From the NCBI GenBank assembly GCA_029239235.1, contig JAQZBD010000038.1, positions 1 through 34,865 on the forward strand: a stretch of DNA of 34,865 nucleotides, given 5' to 3'. Shown here one piece after another: positions 10,874-22,763 of the stretch (position 1 is the stretch's first letter; the number at the start of each line of letters is the position of its first letter). Under the pieces are notes generated by a model. The model made no database searches. It was not told the origin of the DNA and was given only the letters and a program-made list of their open reading frames with translations. A program made the translations under genes and the position numbers. The stretch comes from Herbinix sp. (lineage in GTDB: Bacteria; Bacillota; Clostridia; Lachnospirales; Lachnospiraceae).

Positions 10874-11299
10874 ATGTCATATACAAGTGGTAGATATTAT
10901 GGCAATCGAAGACCGTTCCAGACGCCAAATAATAACTTAAATTTACAGATGATAGGCTCCCCAAATAATACAGGAGGGACAACCGGAAATACGAATTTTG
11001 GTAGTCCTAACACACCCTCCGGTTTGCCGGGAAGTACCGGACAGACACCTCCCATGACTAGAACCACACCCAGCACAGGAGCCCCAACTCCTATTACAGG
11101 AACTCCTGGAACAAGTGCAGGAATGAATCCAGGTATGGGCACAGGTACCGGAATGGGTACTATGCCTTCCCGTCCCAGCACTGGTTTAGGTACTGGCACT
11201 GGTATGGGTACTGGCACTGGGTACCGGCACTGTTCCTGGTGGCCCAACCATTACTCCCGGTATTGGCTTAGGTACGATTCCGACCCACCCGGGTACTAG
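10874..11299 (+). CDS. Coat-like Gly/Thr/Pro/Met-rich repeat protein, 5' part before a frameshift
   Basis: The first part of one gene that is split by a +1 shift. AGGAGC stands 7-8 nt before the ATG. The product starts MSYTSGRYYGNRRP, then enters an Asn/Thr/Gly/Pro region and short GTGMGT repeats. After about residue 115 the repeat stops abruptly and becomes non-repetitive (YRHCSWW) before a stop at 11297-11299. In the next frame, open from 11190, the Gly-Thr-Pro repeat continues without interruption. The shift maps to GGG at 11219-11221, where GG would keep the frame. The 26 residues after the shift are therefore probably not native. Taken together with the downstream part, the intact protein would be about 520 residues. 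Confidence 0.65.
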   Translation: MSYTSGRYYGNRRPFQTPNNNLNLQMIGSPNNTGGTTGNTNFGSPNTPSGLPGSTGQTPPMTRTTPSTGAPTPITGTPGTSAGMNPGMGTGTGMGTMPSRPSTGLGTGTGMGTGTGYRHCSWWPNHYSRYWLRYDSDPPGY

Positions 11300-11342
11300 T
11301 ATAGGGACTCCTCCTAGCTCTTCCGTTACCCCCGGTTCCGGC

Positions 11343-12437
11343 ATGGGAACTGCTCCAACCAGTCCTTCTGTTACCCCTGGTACTGGCATGGGTACTATGC
11401 CTTCTCGCCCTGGTGCTGGTATGGGTACTCCTTCTAGCCCTTCCGTTACCCCTGGTACTGGCATGGGTACTATGCCTTCTCGCCCTGGTGCTGGTATGGG
11501 TACTACTCCTACTACTCCTTCCGTTACCCCTGGTACTGGCATGGGTACTATGCCTTCTCGCCCTGGTGCTGGTATGGGTACTACCCCTACTACTCCTTCT
11601 GTTACCCCTGGTACTGGCATGGGTACTGTGCCTTCTCGTCCCGGTGCTGGTATGGGTACTACTCCTACTACTCCTTCCGTTACCCCTGGTTCCGGCATGG
11701 GTACTGGCGCTATTACCACTCCAGGTAGCCCTTCTACAACTCCCGGTCTTGGCACAGGCATTACTCCGCCTCCGGGAACTATCAGAACCCCTTATATTTA
11801 TGGTACAACACCAAATACACAGAGTTCTACCCCGAACACGGGAAATACAATTAATCCTCCAATAAATATCACACCAGGAATGCCCCCGAACACCGGAAGC
11901 ATGATCCCCGGAATGCCACCTGCAACCGCTCAGACTATGTCTCATAACTCAGTCAATTGGGAGGATTCAACATCGGATATGAGCATGAATCAGAACTATG
12001 CTACTTATCAGGTTTTCGGTGCTTCGTACTTACCAAATAACTCATACGGTGTTCCAATGGGAATGCCTTTATACCCGCTCTATGGATATGATAACAGCTC
12101 TGATCTGGATAAAGATCTTGACTATATGATGGAACTTTATCCACGTACGGCAAAGATAATATTAAAAGAAATATCCATAGCATGCGACTCATTGGATTAT
12201 GAAGGTAGCTGCATGTTTGACGAATATCCTGATCGTGTATCTCTGGATCGAATTGTTGACCGTATCTATGATAAGGTCAAATATATGGAAGAGGAAGAAC
12301 CTATAGTAGAAGCTAGTAGTCTTTATCACAATCCGCGTAGGAGACGCGACAATCATTTACACGACCTCGTTACACTGATTCTGTTGGGTGAGATCTTCAA
12401 TCGAAGAAGGCGTCATCGGAGCAGAAGACGCTGGTAA
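11343..12437 (+). CDS. Coat-like repeat protein, 3' part after a frameshift
   Basis: The second part of the same gene; the ATG at 11343 lies inside a repeat, has no ribosome site, and is unlikely to be a real start. It encodes four near-identical 25-26-residue repeats rich in Gly, Met, Thr and Pro, a further Pro/Thr-rich stretch, then a ~120-residue folded-looking C-terminus: LYPRTAKIILKEIS, CDSLDYEGSCMFDEYPDRVSLDRI, and a very basic tail (RRRRHRSRRRW). The C-terminal motif resembles a small domain I associate with spore-forming Lachnospiraceae, recalled from memory rather than searched. A mother-cell-type promoter and a strong terminator flank the gene. A spore coat or exosporium protein is the best inference; function unproven. 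Confidence 0.65.
   Translation: MGTAPTSPSVTPGTGMGTMPSRPGAGMGTPSSPSVTPGTGMGTMPSRPGAGMGTTPTTPSVTPGTGMGTMPSRPGAGMGTTPTTPSVTPGTGMGTVPSRPGAGMGTTPTTPSVTPGSGMGTGAITTPGSPSTTPGLGTGITPPPGTIRTPYIYGTTPNTQSSTPNTGNTINPPINITPGMPPNTGSMIPGMPPATAQTMSHNSVNWEDSTSDMSMNQNYATYQVFGASYLPNNSYGVPMGMPLYPLYGYDNSSDLDKDLDYMMELYPRTAKIILKEISIACDSLDYEGSCMFDEYPDRVSLDRIVDRIYDKVKYMEEEEPIVEASSLYHNPRRRRDNHLHDLVTLILLGEIFNRRRRHRSRRRW
11379..11687 (+). repeat. Four 78-bp tandem coding repeats
   Basis: Units start at 11379 (75 bp), 11454, 11532 and 11610 (78 bp each). Each encodes a 25-26-residue block built on GTGMGTMPSRPGAGMG plus TPTTPSVTP. Differences are mostly silent or single substitutions, so the array is recent or kept uniform by recombination. 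The DNA is far more GC-rich than its surroundings. Confidence 0.9.
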
Positions 12438-17246: not shown

Positions 17247-18953
17247 CTAGTTAAGATATCGAATGATAACGTTCCATACACTCTCATTCTCTAATCCCAA
17301 TTTCCATTCCGCCACACCGGCAACATCGGCATCGTAGATAACCTTCATCTTTTCCTCAATGGACTTATCTTCTTCCTGCCACATCTTATAAGTATCACCG
17401 TCTTTGTTGTATTCCACATAATAGCAGCCCTTTACATCATCCCATTTTGCCTCTACCCCATTATTCTTTATCAATTCGGCTGCCGGTGACATTGCATAGG
17501 TTTCGGAAGATAAACTGCCATCTGCACCTTCTTTCCATAACCTTGTATAGAATGGTATTGCAATAATAATCTTTTCCTTTGGAACAACTTTCAACATATT
17601 ATTAACTGCATCTGATACAAAGCCAATGGATGCAACCGGCCCTGCCTCTTCTGAATTCCCATGATACTCATCATATGCCATGGCAATGAGGTAATCCACC
17701 ACCTTACCCTGTTCTTCTCGATCATAATATTCTGTATACGGGGAAGGAACATAGTTATCAACGGACAATACAATGCCGTTATTCCTGCACTTAACAGATA
17801 GCTCACGCAGGAACTGAATATAATCAACACCCGCTTCAGATGGGATTTTTTCGAAATCTATATTTATTCCGTTTAATTTGTAGTCTAAGGCCTTTTCAAT
17901 TAAGGCATTGGAAAGGGTATCCCTCCTTGAAGTATAACTAAGCAGCTGTTTCATATTGACTTCTGTATTAAAATCATTTACCAATGCCCAAACCTCGAGC
18001 CCTCGGGCATTCGCACGCGTCACGTACTTCTCCGAAGCAAGGGAGGTGATGGTTCCCGAAACATCATCAATGCTAAACCAGGTAGGTGACACTACGTTCA
18101 CACCCTTAGTATCATCAATCAAATCCTCCAAGCCTGCATTCGCATCCTGATTGAATACTTGGTGAAATACTAAGTTTATTTTTTTGGATCTGGACTGGGC
18201 TGAATATTCCGGCTCCTGATAGGTGCTTTCCAGGGTTTGATATGCGGATTCTTTCGTTGCCTTCTTCTTAATATAACCCTTAACACCATCCTCCGTCATT
18301 ACCTTAATAAAGCCTTTCTCCGGTGCTTCCTCCGTGTCCACGTAAACTAAGCCGGTACCTACCGGTAACTCTAACAAAATTGGACTCTTGATATCAGGTT
18401 CATAGCGAAGCTGGGTTGCTTTCGATACTTCTGTATATAGATAATCACCCCATTTATAATCAATTACTACACGATTAGGATCTTTATAATATTGAAATGT
18501 AAGATCGGAGTATTGCTGAACGAAATCCAGTGACAGATATACCCTATCTACAAAAACCTCTGCGATTGGGTATTCATATTCTCTCTCTGTCTCAATCATA
18601 CTCTTTGTTACAGTATAGGTGCTGCTGGATGCATCGGCTCTGATGATTTCATCCGGCAATGTATAGGTCAGCACATTCTCATTGTAATCCCAATAAAATC
18701 GATGGTTAAACTCCTGAATCACAGTATCGTAATCTATATATACTTTACCATCAATTAAAATCCCTTTTTCCTCATAGATCTGATCTTGAAGGATTAATAC
18801 AACCTCTTTATCCTCTATTTGGTAATACTCCGATAACGGCATTACCTCATCGCTGGGTGTCAGCATTTTTACAATTGCCAATATAATAATGATGGCTATT
18901 AATACAAGGGCAGAGCCAATGCCTATCACAGCCAATCTCACTTTTCTATCCAT
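17247..18953 (-). CDS. GH18 glycoside hydrolase with SH3 domain, membrane-anchored
   Basis: A 568-residue protein with an N-terminal membrane segment (about residues 8-32), a copper-amine-oxidase-like or stalk region, an SH3b domain at about residues 185-245 (LRYEPDIKSPILLELPVG, GVKGYIKKK), and a GH18 domain to the end. The GH18 active-site strand reads LNGINIDFEKIP; its Glu is the catalytic acid. The relatives are YaaH/SleL/YdhD-type enzymes that cut glycan strands of spore peptidoglycan, so a role in cortex or wall remodelling beside the CwlD-like amidase is likely. GGAGG stands 6-7 nt before the ATG, and a sigma-A promoter lies 40 bp upstream of it. Confidence 0.88.
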   Translation of the reverse strand: MDRKVRLAVIGIGSALVLIAIIIILAIVKMLTPSDEVMPLSEYYQIEDKEVVLILQDQIYEEKGILIDGKVYIDYDTVIQEFNHRFYWDYNENVLTYTLPDEIIRADASSSTYTVTKSMIETEREYEYPIAEVFVDRVYLSLDFVQQYSDLTFQYYKDPNRVVIDYKWGDYLYTEVSKATQLRYEPDIKSPILLELPVGTGLVYVDTEEAPEKGFIKVMTEDGVKGYIKKKATKESAYQTLESTYQEPEYSAQSRSKKINLVFHQVFNQDANAGLEDLIDDTKGVNVVSPTWFSIDDVSGTITSLASEKYVTRANARGLEVWALVNDFNTEVNMKQLLSYTSRRDTLSNALIEKALDYKLNGINIDFEKIPSEAGVDYIQFLRELSVKCRNNGIVLSVDNYVPSPYTEYYDREEQGKVVDYLIAMAYDEYHGNSEEAGPVASIGFVSDAVNNMLKVVPKEKIIIAIPFYTRLWKEGADGSLSSETYAMSPAAELIKNNGVEAKWDDVKGCYYVEYNKDGDTYKMWQEEDKSIEEKMKVIYDADVAGVAEWKLGLENESVWNVIIRYLN

Positions 18954-19021: not shown

Positions 19022-19636
19022 TATGAAATTCGACTTTTTAAACTTAATTTTACAAGGATACGACTGGAAGTTGTAAATAATTACAGGGATAGCAGGTGCT
19101 AGAGGAGTCTGTCGGTGCTGCACTAACAAAAAAAGGCTGCCAAGCATTTTAACCCAAGATGTCAGTACACTTTTCATGTATACTTTTCTCTCCCGGCACT
19201 TGCTGACAGCCCTTTTCAAATATTTTATTATTGTTTGTTAGCATAACTTTATTATTCTATGACATATTAACTATTTCATTTTCTTTAGTTTTAACCCAGT
19301 TTTTTCAATTCAGTCCAAAAAGTATAGAGGGCTTTTTAAGTCCTGTTGATAGAAAAATTCACTGTTTCAACCAAACTCATATTTAAATATGTTCATTATT
19401 TTATATTAGCTCATATGCCATAATCCTCTTAAGACTCCCAGTCTAATGTGAATCGGTGCTTTCAATTTAATAAACCTCGGATAAGAAGGTCATTTGTGAT
19501 ATGCTATACTTATCCAGATACCAGATCACATCAGTCTCGTACTTCTAAAGATAAATGGACTACTAAAGATTTAATTTACTTCTAAAGATCTAATATGCTC
19601 GAAAGATTAATTATACTCTAAAGATTGATTATGCTT
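19022..19636. other. Long intergenic region, GH18 to P-loop gene
   Basis: About 615 bp with no convincing protein gene. Contents are a possible small structured RNA (19128-19211, minus), roughly 330 bp of plain AT-rich DNA, and a degenerate 16-20-bp tandem repeat adjoining the P-loop gene stop (19540-19665). Confidence 0.7.
19128..19211 (-). ncRNA. Candidate small structured RNA or terminator-attenuator
   Basis: On the minus strand GGCTGTCAGCAAG (19199-19211) can pair with CTTGGCAGCC (19135-19144), followed by TTTTTTT: an intrinsic terminator closing an ~80-nt element. A second hairpin (AGTATAC/GTGTACT) lies inside. TGTCAG can also pair with CTGACA (the reverse of 19160-19165), which would break the terminator. 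The two exclusive pairings look like a switch, but no known riboswitch class was recognised, and no clear promoter was found upstream. It ends before the GH18 promoter. Confidence 0.35.
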
Positions 19637-19665
19637 TTAGAAATCAAGTATGCTTTTAAAAAATC
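19540..19665. repeat. Degenerate tandem repeat, 16-21 bp units
   Basis: About seven imperfect copies around a core TACTNTAAAGATTNATTA, running from intergenic DNA into the last ~10 codons of the P-loop gene. The core CTAAAGAT is kept in four or five copies. Units vary in length, and there are no spacers, so this is not a CRISPR array. Confidence 0.6.
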
Positions 19666-20263
19666 GGCTTGAACTATTGGTTGTAATCACCGGATCACAT
19701 ACCATCGGTACTGACCAGACCTTTCTTCGAATTTCACCACGTAGCTTCGCCACAATCTTTTCATTACCTTTTGGGATGAAATAAAACCAGGATTCATTTC
19801 CCTTAAGCTGCTCTGCTTCTCTAGCAAACTGCTCTAATTTTTGAAGATCCCAAGCCGAAGCACCACCAATCACAATTTTTAAATCACATCGCAAAAATTC
19901 TTCTCTATTTGCCACAAAATCCGTACCAAAGTCCAGTACCAGAGCCTCATAATCTTCCCCGAAAATATGGGGTATTTGCGCGGGTGTGACTCCCTTATGA
20001 CAGGTGATATTGCGGAAAGAAAAGGTTCCCTTCTCCCTCTTCTGCCATTCATAGGCTTCTTCAATCAATTGTAAGTCATAATGCTTATTGCATTCTAAGA
20101 ATGCGGTTTTTAAACCCACCTCCTCACTAAGATAAAAGGAAAGCATCAAACCGGTGTGAGTTACTCCAACACCATGATGAGATCCAATTAATCCAACCAC
20201 TATTCTTCCCTTCCTTTTTTTCATTATCTGCAACTTTTGAAGTAGCATTGGTTTGCGCAGCAT
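19637..20263 (-). CDS. Degenerate P-loop (MinD/ParA-like) protein, partner of the kinase
   Basis: A 208-residue protein without a named function. It resembles the MinD/ParA fold: strand and loop GLIGSHHGVGVTHTGL at the Walker A place, then ALVLDFG at the Walker B place, then KIVIGGASAWDL. The Walker A lysine of GKGGVGKT is Val, so ATP hydrolysis is doubtful. The same pattern occurs in order in the C-terminal half of the upstream kinase (IGVTH, VVQDFG, LLVLGAKEWEL), so the two are paralogous. Its ATG follows the kinase stop by 1 nt (TAATATG), with AAGGAGAGG 11 nt upstream, so translation is likely coupled. It may be a stable accessory or substrate of the kinase; function unknown. Confidence 0.75.
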   Translation of the reverse strand: MLRKPMLLQKLQIMKKRKGRIVVGLIGSHHGVGVTHTGLMLSFYLSEEVGLKTAFLECNKHYDLQLIEEAYEWQKREKGTFSFRNITCHKGVTPAQIPHIFGEDYEALVLDFGTDFVANREEFLRCDLKIVIGGASAWDLQKLEQFAREAEQLKGNESWFYFIPKGNEKIVAKLRGEIRRKVWSVPMVCDPVITTNSSSRFFKSILDF

Positions 20264-20264
20264 A

Positions 20265-21680
20265 TTACTTCATTCCTCTCCTTATCAAATTAAATATCTT
20301 TTTATACCAGGATAATCTTTGATCTGAAGATTGCAGCTCACGAAAGAAATCTATTTCCTGCTCTGTTGTCAATGACACAAAAGGGTCAGGTTCATAAGGG
20401 ATACGGTAACAGTTCTTAAAACCCATGCTTCCCACTACTCGCTGAAACTGCTTTCCATCTAGAAAATTAAATAAGTAAGAGATCTCTTTAAAATCCGCTA
20501 CCAGTCTCAATACCTGTTCAGAACTCTCCAACTCCCATTCCTTAGCTCCAAGTACTAAGAGCTTTTGATCGGCAGACAAGAATTCCTCCAGATTATCCTC
20601 CGTAAGGCAGCCAAAATCCTGTACTACGATAGGATAACGCGATAGCTCTGCAAGAACCTCTTTCCTATAAGCGTGCATGGGTATCTTATTTATAACAATT
20701 ACCCCGGCTTCCGCCCCCACAGCCCCCATATCTTCATATTGATTCTTCAAGGATGTAACGCACCCACTCTGGTTCTTCTCCTGATAAAGACAAGAAATAT
20801 TTCTTCCGATATAATAATTACAAAGTCGAAAGGAAAAATGCGTGACTCCGATTCTTGATTGCGAACCTGCGATGGCAACTTTCCGCATCCGCCCCTCTTC
20901 ATGAATGAATTGGCCTTTCGTTAATAGTGCTGATAATTGTTGATTCAACTTGACTACGTCAAAATAGCGCCCGGCTGGATTCGATTTGAGACAACGGTTA
21001 ATTATGTGCTTCAATTGCCCGGAGCAATTGCTCACTAAATCAATATTATGAATCGTTGGGTCGCTACTGCGGATATAGCACCCGGTACCCATATAATATA
21101 GTAGCATTCCGATTCCAAAGACATCACAGCGCTCATCAATTTCATCCTGCAAATATAGCTCCGGTGCAGCATATCCAGCAGTTGCAAAATACTTGGGCTG
21201 ATTATAAGCCGCTTTCGTAAAGACAGCGCTGCCGAAGTCAACCAGCTTAAGCGTCATATCGGATAAGATAATGTTGTCCGGTTTGAGATCCACATAGAGA
21301 ATGGGTTGTTCCAAAGAGTGCAAATAATGGATTAGATCACAGAGCTGTGTTCCGAATTTCAGAATAATTTCTTCCTGGAGGATGCCTCTGGAGGCAACAT
21401 ATTCCGTTAACGTCTCACCTTCAAGATATTGTTCGACAATATAGGAACCTTCTTCATCTTCCTCAATATCATAAATTATAGGAATGCAGGAATGTTTGAG
21501 ATTTTTTAATACTAGGGCTTCATTTCTTTGTAATTCATAGAAGGGATGATTTTTTGAGATAAATTTGATTGCTCGAAAAGAATTTAAGATGATATGTTTT
21601 GCAAGATAAACCTTAGCTGTTCCTCCGTGGCCAAGTAAACCTAAGATTTCATATTTTTGAAACCAAATTTCCTGCTGCAT
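20265..21680 (-). CDS. Ser/Thr protein kinase with C-terminal degenerate P-loop domain
   Basis: A 471-residue cytoplasmic protein with no membrane segment. Residues 8-250 are a Hanks-type kinase: glycine loop LLGHGGTAKVY, K39 in RAIKF, catalytic loop YVDLKPDN (D131, K133, N136), DFG at 148-150, and TAGYAAPE. The HRD motif is YVD, so it is a non-RD kinase that may not need activation-loop phosphorylation. Residues 266-471 are a MinD/ParA-like domain with a lysine-less P-loop (GSQSRIGVTH). PASTA repeats are absent, unlike PrkC. The start at 21680 is chosen because AAAGGAG precedes it and the promoter start site falls near the upstream ATG at 21725. Transcribed divergently from mecA. Confidence 0.85.
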   Translation of the reverse strand: MQQEIWFQKYEILGLLGHGGTAKVYLAKHIILNSFRAIKFISKNHPFYELQRNEALVLKNLKHSCIPIIYDIEEDEEGSYIVEQYLEGETLTEYVASRGILQEEIILKFGTQLCDLIHYLHSLEQPILYVDLKPDNIILSDMTLKLVDFGSAVFTKAAYNQPKYFATAGYAAPELYLQDEIDERCDVFGIGMLLYYMGTGCYIRSSDPTIHNIDLVSNCSGQLKHIINRCLKSNPAGRYFDVVKLNQQLSALLTKGQFIHEEGRMRKVAIAGSQSRIGVTHFSFRLCNYYIGRNISCLYQEKNQSGCVTSLKNQYEDMGAVGAEAGVIVINKIPMHAYRKEVLAELSRYPIVVQDFGCLTEDNLEEFLSADQKLLVLGAKEWELESSEQVLRLVADFKEISYLFNFLDGKQFQRVVGSMGFKNCYRIPYEPDPFVSLTTEQEIDFFRELQSSDQRLSWYKKIFNLIRRGMK

Positions 21681-21730: not shown

Positions 21731-21759
21731 ATTATAGTTAAATAATGGAAGATTTGCAA
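21731..21759 (-). promoter_or_regulatory. Sigma-A promoter of the kinase operon
   Basis: On the minus strand TTGCAA, 17 bp, TATAAT. The predicted start site is at about 21724, some 44 nt before the chosen kinase ATG. Confidence 0.75.
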
Positions 21760-21873
21760 TATCTTTTTCATTAGCCTTTTTCACAAACTTTTTTTAAAAT
21801 TTTGTATGATTTACCACTGATTTTAGTAGCAATATTTAAGCGTGTTTTCATATAAATTTCATAGGTATGCATA

Positions 21874-21902
21874 TTGACTTTACTTATATTTTAAATTATA
21901 CT
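21874..21902 (+). promoter_or_regulatory. Sigma-A promoter of mecA
   Basis: TTGACT, 17 bp, TATACT, about 75 bp before the mecA ATG at 21978. It lies downstream of an in-frame ATG at 21867, which rules that codon out as the start for this transcript. Confidence 0.7.
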
Positions 21903-21977
21903 TTTTTTACACCAATGGATGATTTATCGTGGATACGTGTAATCAGTTCCTTTTTAGTACAGAAAGGGGTGTACTTT

Positions 21978-22763
21978 ATGAAGATAGAAAAAATTAATGA
22001 CAACCAAATAAGATGTACCCTGAACAAAAGTGATTTAATTGACCGAGAATTAAAAATAAGCGAGCTTGCCTACGGTACCGAGAAAGCAAAGGCACTGTTT
22101 CGTGATATGATCCAGCAGGCGTTTTATGAATTCGGTTTTGAAGTAGATGATATTCCTTTAATGATAGAAGCTATTCCCGTATCAACTGAATGTCTCATTT
22201 TGGTTATAACTAAGGTTGAAGATCCAGATGAATTAGATACTCGCTTTTCTAAGTTTTCTTCTTTCAATGTTCATAGCACTTCGGACAAATCTGAGAATGA
22301 TGATGACGACGATGATGCATATGCGGATGAAATCATTAACAGCTTTGAACAATTAGAGGATGAACTAGGCGATGATTTGGATGAAAACAGCAAAGAGGAA
22401 GACACCCTTGTGGAAGCAGAAGCAGTAGATATGGATCCTCCCGCAAAATCAGGTGCTCATATTCCTTCCAAATTGACCAAAATATATTCATTCCGCTCCT
22501 TACAGGAGGTCGTGGAATTAGCGTATATTATGCTTGGAATCTACAACGGAACCAATACTCTTTATAAAAATCCTTTGACTGCTACTTATTATCTTGTAGT
22601 AAGCATGTCTGATCATACTCCGGAGGAGTTTAATAAGATTTGTAATATCATATCTGAATATGGCAAGGTGGAGCGTTCCACTTATGCAAGCTCTACTTAT
22701 TACAAGGAACATTATGAAGTCATTGTAAAAGATCATGCGCTGCAGATATTATCTGTAATGTAA
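21978..22763 (+). CDS. mecA: Adaptor protein MecA
   Basis: An adaptor that recruits unfolded or regulatory proteins to ClpC/ClpP; in Bacillus it targets ComK. The 261 residues comprise a conserved N-terminal substrate-binding domain (MKIEKINDNQIRCTL..., about residues 1-90), a long acidic linker (about 95-155, with DDDDDD), and the C-terminal ClpC-binding domain (IYSFRSLQEVVELA, ending HALQIL). The linker is longer and more acidic than the ~218-residue Bacillus form. The start is supported by GAAAGGGG 8-9 nt upstream and by a promoter between it and an earlier in-frame ATG. It stands divergent to the kinase operon and ends in a strong terminator. Confidence 0.93.
   Translation: MKIEKINDNQIRCTLNKSDLIDRELKISELAYGTEKAKALFRDMIQQAFYEFGFEVDDIPLMIEAIPVSTECLILVITKVEDPDELDTRFSKFSSFNVHSTSDKSENDDDDDDAYADEIINSFEQLEDELGDDLDENSKEEDTLVEAEAVDMDPPAKSGAHIPSKLTKIYSFRSLQEVVELAYIMLGIYNGTNTLYKNPLTATYYLVVSMSDHTPEEFNKICNIISEYGKVERSTYASSTYYKEHYEVIVKDHALQILSVM

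Follow-up and report, generated by a model that had tools for sequence, protein, structure and literature searches.

A protein kinase fused to, and paired with, lysine-less MinD/ParA-like domains in Herbinix sp. as a probable hub of a Tad-pilus-like machine

On the minus strand of contig JAQZBD010000038.1 of Herbinix sp. (Lachnospiraceae; assembly GCA_029239235.1), the whole of whose 34,865 nucleotides (nt) is called the window in what follows, the gene for a Ser/Thr protein kinase precedes by 1 nt the gene for a protein which resembles the C-terminal half of the kinase itself. Both resembling parts look like MinD/ParA ATPases devoid of the Walker A lysine, and the question raised by this locus is what a kinase would do with one such domain fused to it and a second one encoded next to it. 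The pair is made up as follows.

20265..21680, minus strand: Ser/Thr protein kinase, 471 amino acids (Pfam PF00069, E 5e-39)
20268..20891, minus strand: pseudo-ATPase C-terminal domain (C-domain) of the kinase, with GSQSRIGVTH, assigned by homology to the free partner
19637..20263, minus strand: free partner, 208 amino acids, lysine-less MinD/ParA-like pseudo-ATPase with GSHHGVGVTH (AlphaFold2, Foldseek)

We argue that the pair is probably, with a likelihood of roughly 0.6, the cytoplasmic hub of a divergent Tad-pilus-like machine of the type IV filament family, in which the kinase sits in the slot of TadZ. A first-pass annotation had taken the two genes for a self-standing signalling or localisation module. 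This view was not supported as it stood, because in other Bacillota the kinase and partner genes head Tad-pilus-like operons and because the machine co-occurs with them in Lachnospiraceae; the pair is therefore more aptly viewed as the head of a machine of known kind, from which it has been split. The genomic case for such an origin appears strong.

Homology, fold and the lost lysine

The kinase protein consists of a kinase domain (around residues 8-255), a short linker and a lysine-less MinD/ParA-like C-domain (around residues 264-450), which has in common with the free partner the motif G-S-x4-G-V-T-H, a V-x-D-F-G strand and G-A-x2-W-(D/E)-L. Coordinates, spacing and common motifs had all been read correctly in the first-pass annotation, which had preset a comparison of the two domains by hidden Markov model profiles as its test. 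In BLASTP the two aligned with 26% identity over 192 columns (E 9e-12, for a single comparison), and the profile-profile comparison of kinase C-domains with free partners (49 and 50 rows) was significant at 99.85% (E 1.1e-30, 183 columns), as against 40% over a local match of 48 columns for the control, the P-loop of CpaF-like ATPases. As judged from these alignments, the likeness is indeed one of real homology and not of chance.

The AlphaFold2 model of the free partner (predicted local distance difference test, pLDDT, 87.2; predicted template modelling score, pTM, 0.86) found as its top Foldseek matches a ParA-family protein (5tvk, E 4e-8), FlhG (4rz2, E 1e-7) and MinD (3q9l, E 4e-6), with HypB, nitrogenase Fe protein and Soj among the further best structures; the predicted fold, confidently modelled, is of the MinD/ParA class, in agreement with what had been proposed from the sequence. 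In the kinase model (pLDDT 84.8, pTM 0.68), whose best match in PDB is S. aureus PknB, a second alpha/beta domain lies beyond the short linker. Pfam and NCBIfam recognised the kinase part, while neither lysine-less domain of the window was matched significantly and no known family was found to span both; weak AAA_31 or CbiA matches appeared in 2 of 50 relatives (Pfam). Sequence searches of PDB with the kinase C-domain, three receiver-type proteins and L148 returned nothing significant.

None of the 211 domains with a letter at the position of the Walker A lysine has a lysine there, as had been noticed for the two domains of the window, the place being taken by T, V, A, C or another residue; the count was made on open reading frames of at least 120 amino acids from L035-L188 and the window with identical ones dropped (213 rows, some of which may be cut copies from overlapping stretches). 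The Walker A threonine is retained in 207 of the 211 and followed by H in 190. Alignment of 50 free partners shows no variation in this threonine or in the Walker B aspartate, and no lysine stands among the invariant or nearly invariant columns of the aligned domains. In the domain tree, which was rooted at its midpoint and has weak deep branches, the 23 sampled Lachnospiraceae kinase C-domains, that of the window included, form one clade with L177 (99/99), and 30 of the 32 free proteins group (80/94) with 12 of the 17 single domains of partnerless kinases. By this grouping it is probably the free partner that has retained the older form, and the C-domain of the kinase that is the divergent duplicate.

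Machine operons in other Bacillota and separate loci in Lachnospiraceae

A search with the free partner's profile turned up relatives in 49 out of 295 genomes from the order and in 41 out of 398 from the phylum, both counts including the genome of the window; 40 places outside the family, chosen among the profile matches, were fetched with their flanks. Twenty-two of them hold a kinase domain. A SAF/CpaB-like gene follows on the same strand at 12 of these 22 loci, and a CpaF-like ATPase gene too at 10 (L149-L151, L163, L172, L175-L177, L179, L180); in L173 and L174 SAF is present and the stretch ends before the remaining genes. The order in the ten full loci is kinase (with or without partner), SAF, a further gene (mostly n6), mostly the ParA-like c61, and the CpaF-like ATPase, and the longer stretches continue beyond the CpaF-like gene with a membrane protein and small proteins. 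In hydropathy scans one machine protein shows about six transmembrane (TM) segments, and small ones show a single hydrophobic segment at the N terminus. PF08666 (SAF) scored above its cut-off in L177, L149 and L193, the CpaB model TIGR03177 being weak; T2SSE (PF00437) was above cut-off in the CpaF-like ATPases, which matched TadA (TIGR03819) at E 1e-9 and 1e-11, far below its cut-off. Locus L177 runs mecA (divergent), a CAAX-protease-like gene, kinase, partner, SAF, n6, c61, CpaF-like ATPase, a membrane protein of six TM segments, three pilin-like genes and a GH18 gene. It corresponds to the window's locus, but with the machine genes retained, exactly between those that answer to the partner and GH18 genes.

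Compared by profiles with the lysine-less domain, n6 gave 84% (E 8e-6) and is a probable further relative of it; c61 showed no sequence link to the domain (7%), and its profile matched a ParA-family chain (E 8e-4). One machine may, by its sequences, carry up to four dead MinD-type domains. Both n6 and c61 (L177:10425-11039 and 11041-11838, with equivalents elsewhere) look ParA-like and have no canonical P-loop lysine in the aligned rows. The lysine-less domain was also seen behind another N-terminal domain in proteins of about 360-420 amino acids (L157-L159, L161, L181-L185, L078, L083), which sit among VirB4/TraG-type ATPase genes, probably on conjugative elements; this N-terminal domain looks receiver-like by eye and found no match in Pfam or PDB.

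Within Lachnospiraceae, 37 of 299 genomes have the divergent CpaF-like ATPase, and 32 of these 37 also have the domain, as against 9.4 expected (p 4e-17; all association p-values given here ignore the kinship of genomes). No kinase was found at any of 41 machine places, and at 39 of them the partner profile gave weak cross-matches only (at most 36 bits). Of the 31 genomes with both loci, 16 have the SAF gene in the kinase locus, 9 (the genome of the window being one) have it in the machine locus and 6 in neither; none has it at both cognate loci (0/31, p 2.5e-4), G099 having a second machine with its own SAF; in these counts the sequence upstream of CpaF was shorter than 4 kb at several machine loci (L217, L229, L233, L241, L242), and an 18-bit SAF match 5.7 kb from the machine of G182 was left uncounted. 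The kinase locus includes SAF in 16 of the 31 machine-bearing genomes and in 0 of the 32 that lack the machine (p 8e-7). Since SAF is never present at both cognate loci and never at the kinase locus when the machine is missing, this distribution is hard to explain unless the kinase and machine loci make parts of one thing.

The divergent machine of the window's genome, on contig C265, comprises SAF, n6, c61, a CpaF-like ATPase (514 bits), the membrane protein and three n7-type genes, and has neither kinase nor free partner; the window's pair would have to act on it in trans. C262 (L194) of the same genome holds a Tad locus with its own TadZ (3fkq, E 3.5e-6) and with CpaF and TadC-type T2SSF matches. 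A second T2SSE-type ATPase locus, PilB-like by size and start, was seen at C263 (L195), and the genome perhaps holds three filament-type systems.

Pairing, neighbours and the state of the kinase

A relative of the free protein occurs in 76 of the 299 Lachnospiraceae genomes. The survey of gene neighbourhoods found the homologues mostly paired, as the first-pass annotation had expected: the free partner adjoins the kinase at 74 of 79 distinct kinase loci, and at the remaining five (L048, L053, L069, L081, L086) a partner-type domain lies inside the kinase with no free copy. The 79 loci remain from 96 (60 fetched stretches, 35 loci from named genomes and the window) after removal of 10 duplicates and 7 without a full kinase (L078, L083, L088, L089, L093, and L121 and L123 at contig ends). 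Kinase loci were read in 63 of the 76 domain genomes, and among the other 13, G162 and G178 were seen only as kinase-less forms. In the loci from named genomes the kinase is adjacent in 33 of 35, the other two starting near a contig end. The alignment behind the kinase profiles holds one wrong row, the SAF-type protein of L088, which is a false kinase match in the profile search and by which hits may be added, not lost.

The promoter and neighbours of the pair in the window are the following.

21731..21759, minus strand: sigma-A-like promoter of the kinase-partner pair, TTGCAA-17-TATAAT (motif scan)
21867..22763, plus strand: MecA adaptor, divergent neighbour (PF05389, E 3.3e-71), likely start near 21978 by eye
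17247..18953, minus strand: membrane-anchored GH18/SH3/Cu-amine-oxidase-N protein (PF00704, E 2e-21), one N-terminal hydrophobic segment
16396..17139, minus strand: N-acetylmuramoyl-L-alanine amidase (PF01520, E 1.5e-50)

The divergent mecA was already recognised at first sight; it lies within 2.5 kb upstream at 69 of the 75 kinase loci with room for it, on the opposite strand in 68. Downstream, the GH18 gene is present at 72 of 74 loci with room and the amidase gene at 48 of 72, a small protein, c8, at 58 of 77 and a SAF-domain gene at 14 of 72; beside the window's pair neither c8 nor SAF was found. The c8 proteins are about 70-100 amino acids long and end near YMGDY...LKEIRFDKVY (L045:8604-8900 and equivalents), and the one member scanned had no Pfam match. 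Promoter scores of at least 10 out of 12 were reached at 35 of the 79 kinase loci, as against 4.6 expected from shuffles. An open reading frame version of the kinase with 486 amino acids is unlikely, because its start would lie only 6 bases past the -10 box. Control of the pair by CtsR was rejected, the best candidate sites being off by 4 to 7 positions. Just downstream of the free partner, window positions 19460-19640 are AT-rich with recurring AAAGAT/TAATTTA-like words, and positions 11343-12437 encode a 364-amino-acid protein with MGT/PSRPGAG repeats.

The catalytic loop of the window's kinase, YVDLKPDN, is non-RD, and by motif alignment the catalytic Lys, Asp, Asn and DFG all appear intact; the hydropathy scan revealed no TM segment and Pfam no PASTA match, in line with the first description of the protein. 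Among 63 kinases (50 aligned and 13 read separately, with sums made by hand), an intact DFG is found in 30 of the 31 whose genomes have the machine (L069, with DYG, is the exception) and in 9 of the 32 whose genomes lack it (p 5e-7). The corresponding figures are 26 of 31 and 9 of 32 for the catalytic-loop Lys (p 1e-5), and 21 of 31 and 0 of 32 for Lys, Asn and DFG together (p 6e-9); these three p-values come from a count in which five unreadable motifs were scored as not intact.

Several observations weigh against a hub role of the pair. In the tree of 50 kinases, 22 of the 30 from genomes without the machine form one clade (99/94), and the motif loss therefore represents a few events, not thirty. 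This clade has DLQ or DIQ in 21 members and DLH in one in place of DLK, and DFD for DFG in 18; outside it, kinases without the machine show DYG in two lineages and an intact DFG in five kinases. Because the pair survives loss of the machine in this clade, some use for it without the machine is suggested, and the domain is kept without the machine in 44 of the 76 genomes. No recognised SAF gene stands beside 10 of the 22 kinase-domain loci outside the family, six of the 31 genomes have none at either locus as noted above, the membrane and pilin-like proteins were matched by no Pfam or NCBIfam family model, and L088 and L089 are machine operons with a kinase-less protein carrying the domain. The CpaF-like genes of 5 of the 37 genomes (G125, G157, G182, G197, G218) have in-frame stops, four of these genomes belonging to the 16 whose kinase locus includes SAF, and their machines may be decaying, unless the stops are assembly errors. 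In the window's own genome, C265 retains SAF and another ParA-like protein ahead, and its CpaF branches apart from those of operons with a kinase, on a weak backbone and in a tree made without L230, L232, L236, L237 and L238, whose CpaF genes have in-frame stops. The C265 machine may thus not depend on the window's pair, and because it has its own SAF and the extra ParA-like protein, the two are less firmly linked than in genera whose kinase locus includes SAF. Lastly, the domain profile gave 0.7%, no detectable match, with the single TadZ of the same genome, and on sequence grounds the pair was not named TadZ proper.

Some of these points would also fit a rather unlikely alternative, in which the pair has left the machine for a new role with MecA (ClpC proteolysis) and the GH18 hydrolase, either as a scaffold or in sensing the state of the envelope, the kinase being a pseudokinase in many genera. 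The mecA and GH18 genes are indeed more constant neighbours than the machine, 44 genomes do without the machine, and the 22 genera with degraded DLK and mostly DFD are of one clade. However, mecA and GH18 already flank the full operon in L177 and are perhaps mere flanks, mecA lies on the strand opposite to the pair, the window's kinase has all its catalytic residues in a genome which has the machine, and an ancestral role in the machine is indicated by the SAF linkage and the co-occurrence.

Known systems and a proposed mechanism

Passages of PMC6668835 place TadZ among the P-loop proteins, note that its Walker A is atypical, and have it at the pole early, as a hub which recruits Tad parts; it binds ATP despite this Walker A and has low ATPase activity. 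A passage of PMC11217815 implicates it in polar localisation. Like TadZ/CpaE, our pair has a MinD/ParA-type fold and a degenerate Walker A, and its relatives' genes stand beside CpaB/RcpC-like SAF and CpaF/TadA-like ATPase genes at the 10 of 22 loci described above, not at the window itself; in the operon of L169, moreover, the kinase gives way to a different N-terminal domain, about 150 amino acids long, much as TadZ has a receiver there. Unlike TadZ/CpaE, the pair has an N-terminal Hanks-type kinase and no receiver domain, its domain is doubled as a free partner, and in the window it lies apart from the machine. With MinD, ParA and FlhG it shares the fold, the Walker B aspartate and the conserved Walker A threonine, and it differs from them in the lost lysine, the H after the threonine and the fused or paired kinase. 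That the domains are working nucleotide switches, binding ATP without the canonical lysine and running an ordinary MinD/ParA-like cycle with the kinase, is improbable: the retained threonine and aspartate and the ATP binding of TadZ would speak for it, but the lysine is missing from all 211 domains and from the listed invariant and nearly invariant columns. Still less probable is a sporulation module in which the downstream amidase and wall hydrolase point to handling of the spore cortex, since, although spoIVA occurs in 63 of the 76 domain genomes and in 131 of 223 without the domain (p 9e-5; tally by eye), its absence from 13 of the 76 (some incomplete) speaks against a role in sporulation only, and the promoter is sigma-A-like, with a slight excess of sigma-E sites (22 against 15) and sigma-F/G sites (18 against 12.3) over shuffles at the 79 loci.

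The window's kinase is like the PASTA kinases PknB, PrkC and Stk1 in its match to NF033483 (127 bits, cut-off 450) and in having PknB as its top fold match, and unlike them in its non-RD loop and C-terminal pseudo-ATPase; the lack of TM segment and PASTA rules out an ordinary PASTA kinase. By NCBIfam, a known defence or BREX kinase was likewise rejected (100 bits for NF047741, cut-off 460, and 49 for NF033442, cut-off 990; PADLOC itself was not searched). According to passages of PMC11217815, the kinases TscD and TsdD of type VII secretion variants are encoded with an envelope machine and are envelope-anchored, and some of these variants adjoin Tad genes, one component having a TadZ-like receiver. 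The window-type kinase resembles TscD and TsdD in being encoded with an envelope machine, in the operons of relatives, and differs in its MinD-like domain, of which these passages say nothing ("MinD" occurs 0 times).

MinD-family proteins pair with each other. The kinase C-domain and the free partner would most likely pair together in the same manner, as a heterodimer without ATP hydrolysis, and the paired dead domains may take the place of TadZ/CpaE, marking the site and gathering the ATPase and the membrane platform. The kinase, standing where TadZ has a receiver domain, may phosphorylate a protein of the machine or a neighbouring one and thereby couple assembly to the state of the cell; candidate targets are MecA and GH18 and, within the machine, the CpaF-like ATPase and the SAF protein at its short cytoplasmic tail. 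In Lachnospiraceae the operon would have been split, the pair, accompanied in some genera by the SAF/CpaB-like gene, remaining between mecA and GH18 and the other genes lying elsewhere or being lost. The localisation part of this proposal agrees, by analogy, with the published account of TadZ. Taken in full, the scheme is possible with the odds somewhat against it: in a widespread Tad-like branch of Bacillota, of which we found no published account, a kinase would have replaced the receiver in the TadZ slot, a heterodimer of two dead MinD-type domains would have formed, phosphorylation would control the machine, and after the split in Lachnospiraceae loss of the machine would have left a pseudokinase with a second job beside mecA.

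In searches of the openly licensed literature of PubMed Central, no title or abstract start among the results describes a kinase-pseudo-ATPase fusion or a kinase in Tad operons, and the word "kinase" is absent from the main texts of PMC3244431, PMC6916266 and PMC6668835. How Tad-type machines are sited and switched is an open question in the field, and TadZ is listed in a part of the review PMC6916266 among Tad-specific proteins of unknown function. Where a kinase is fused to a TadZ-like pseudo-ATPase, Ser/Thr phosphorylation would be linked directly to assembly of an envelope machine in gut-type bacteria; the split of the operon, with the correlated loss of kinase motifs, would serve as a natural experiment on the purpose of the kinase. 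The proposal thereby gives a testable role to a gene pair which Pfam and NCBIfam leave nameless except for its kinase part.

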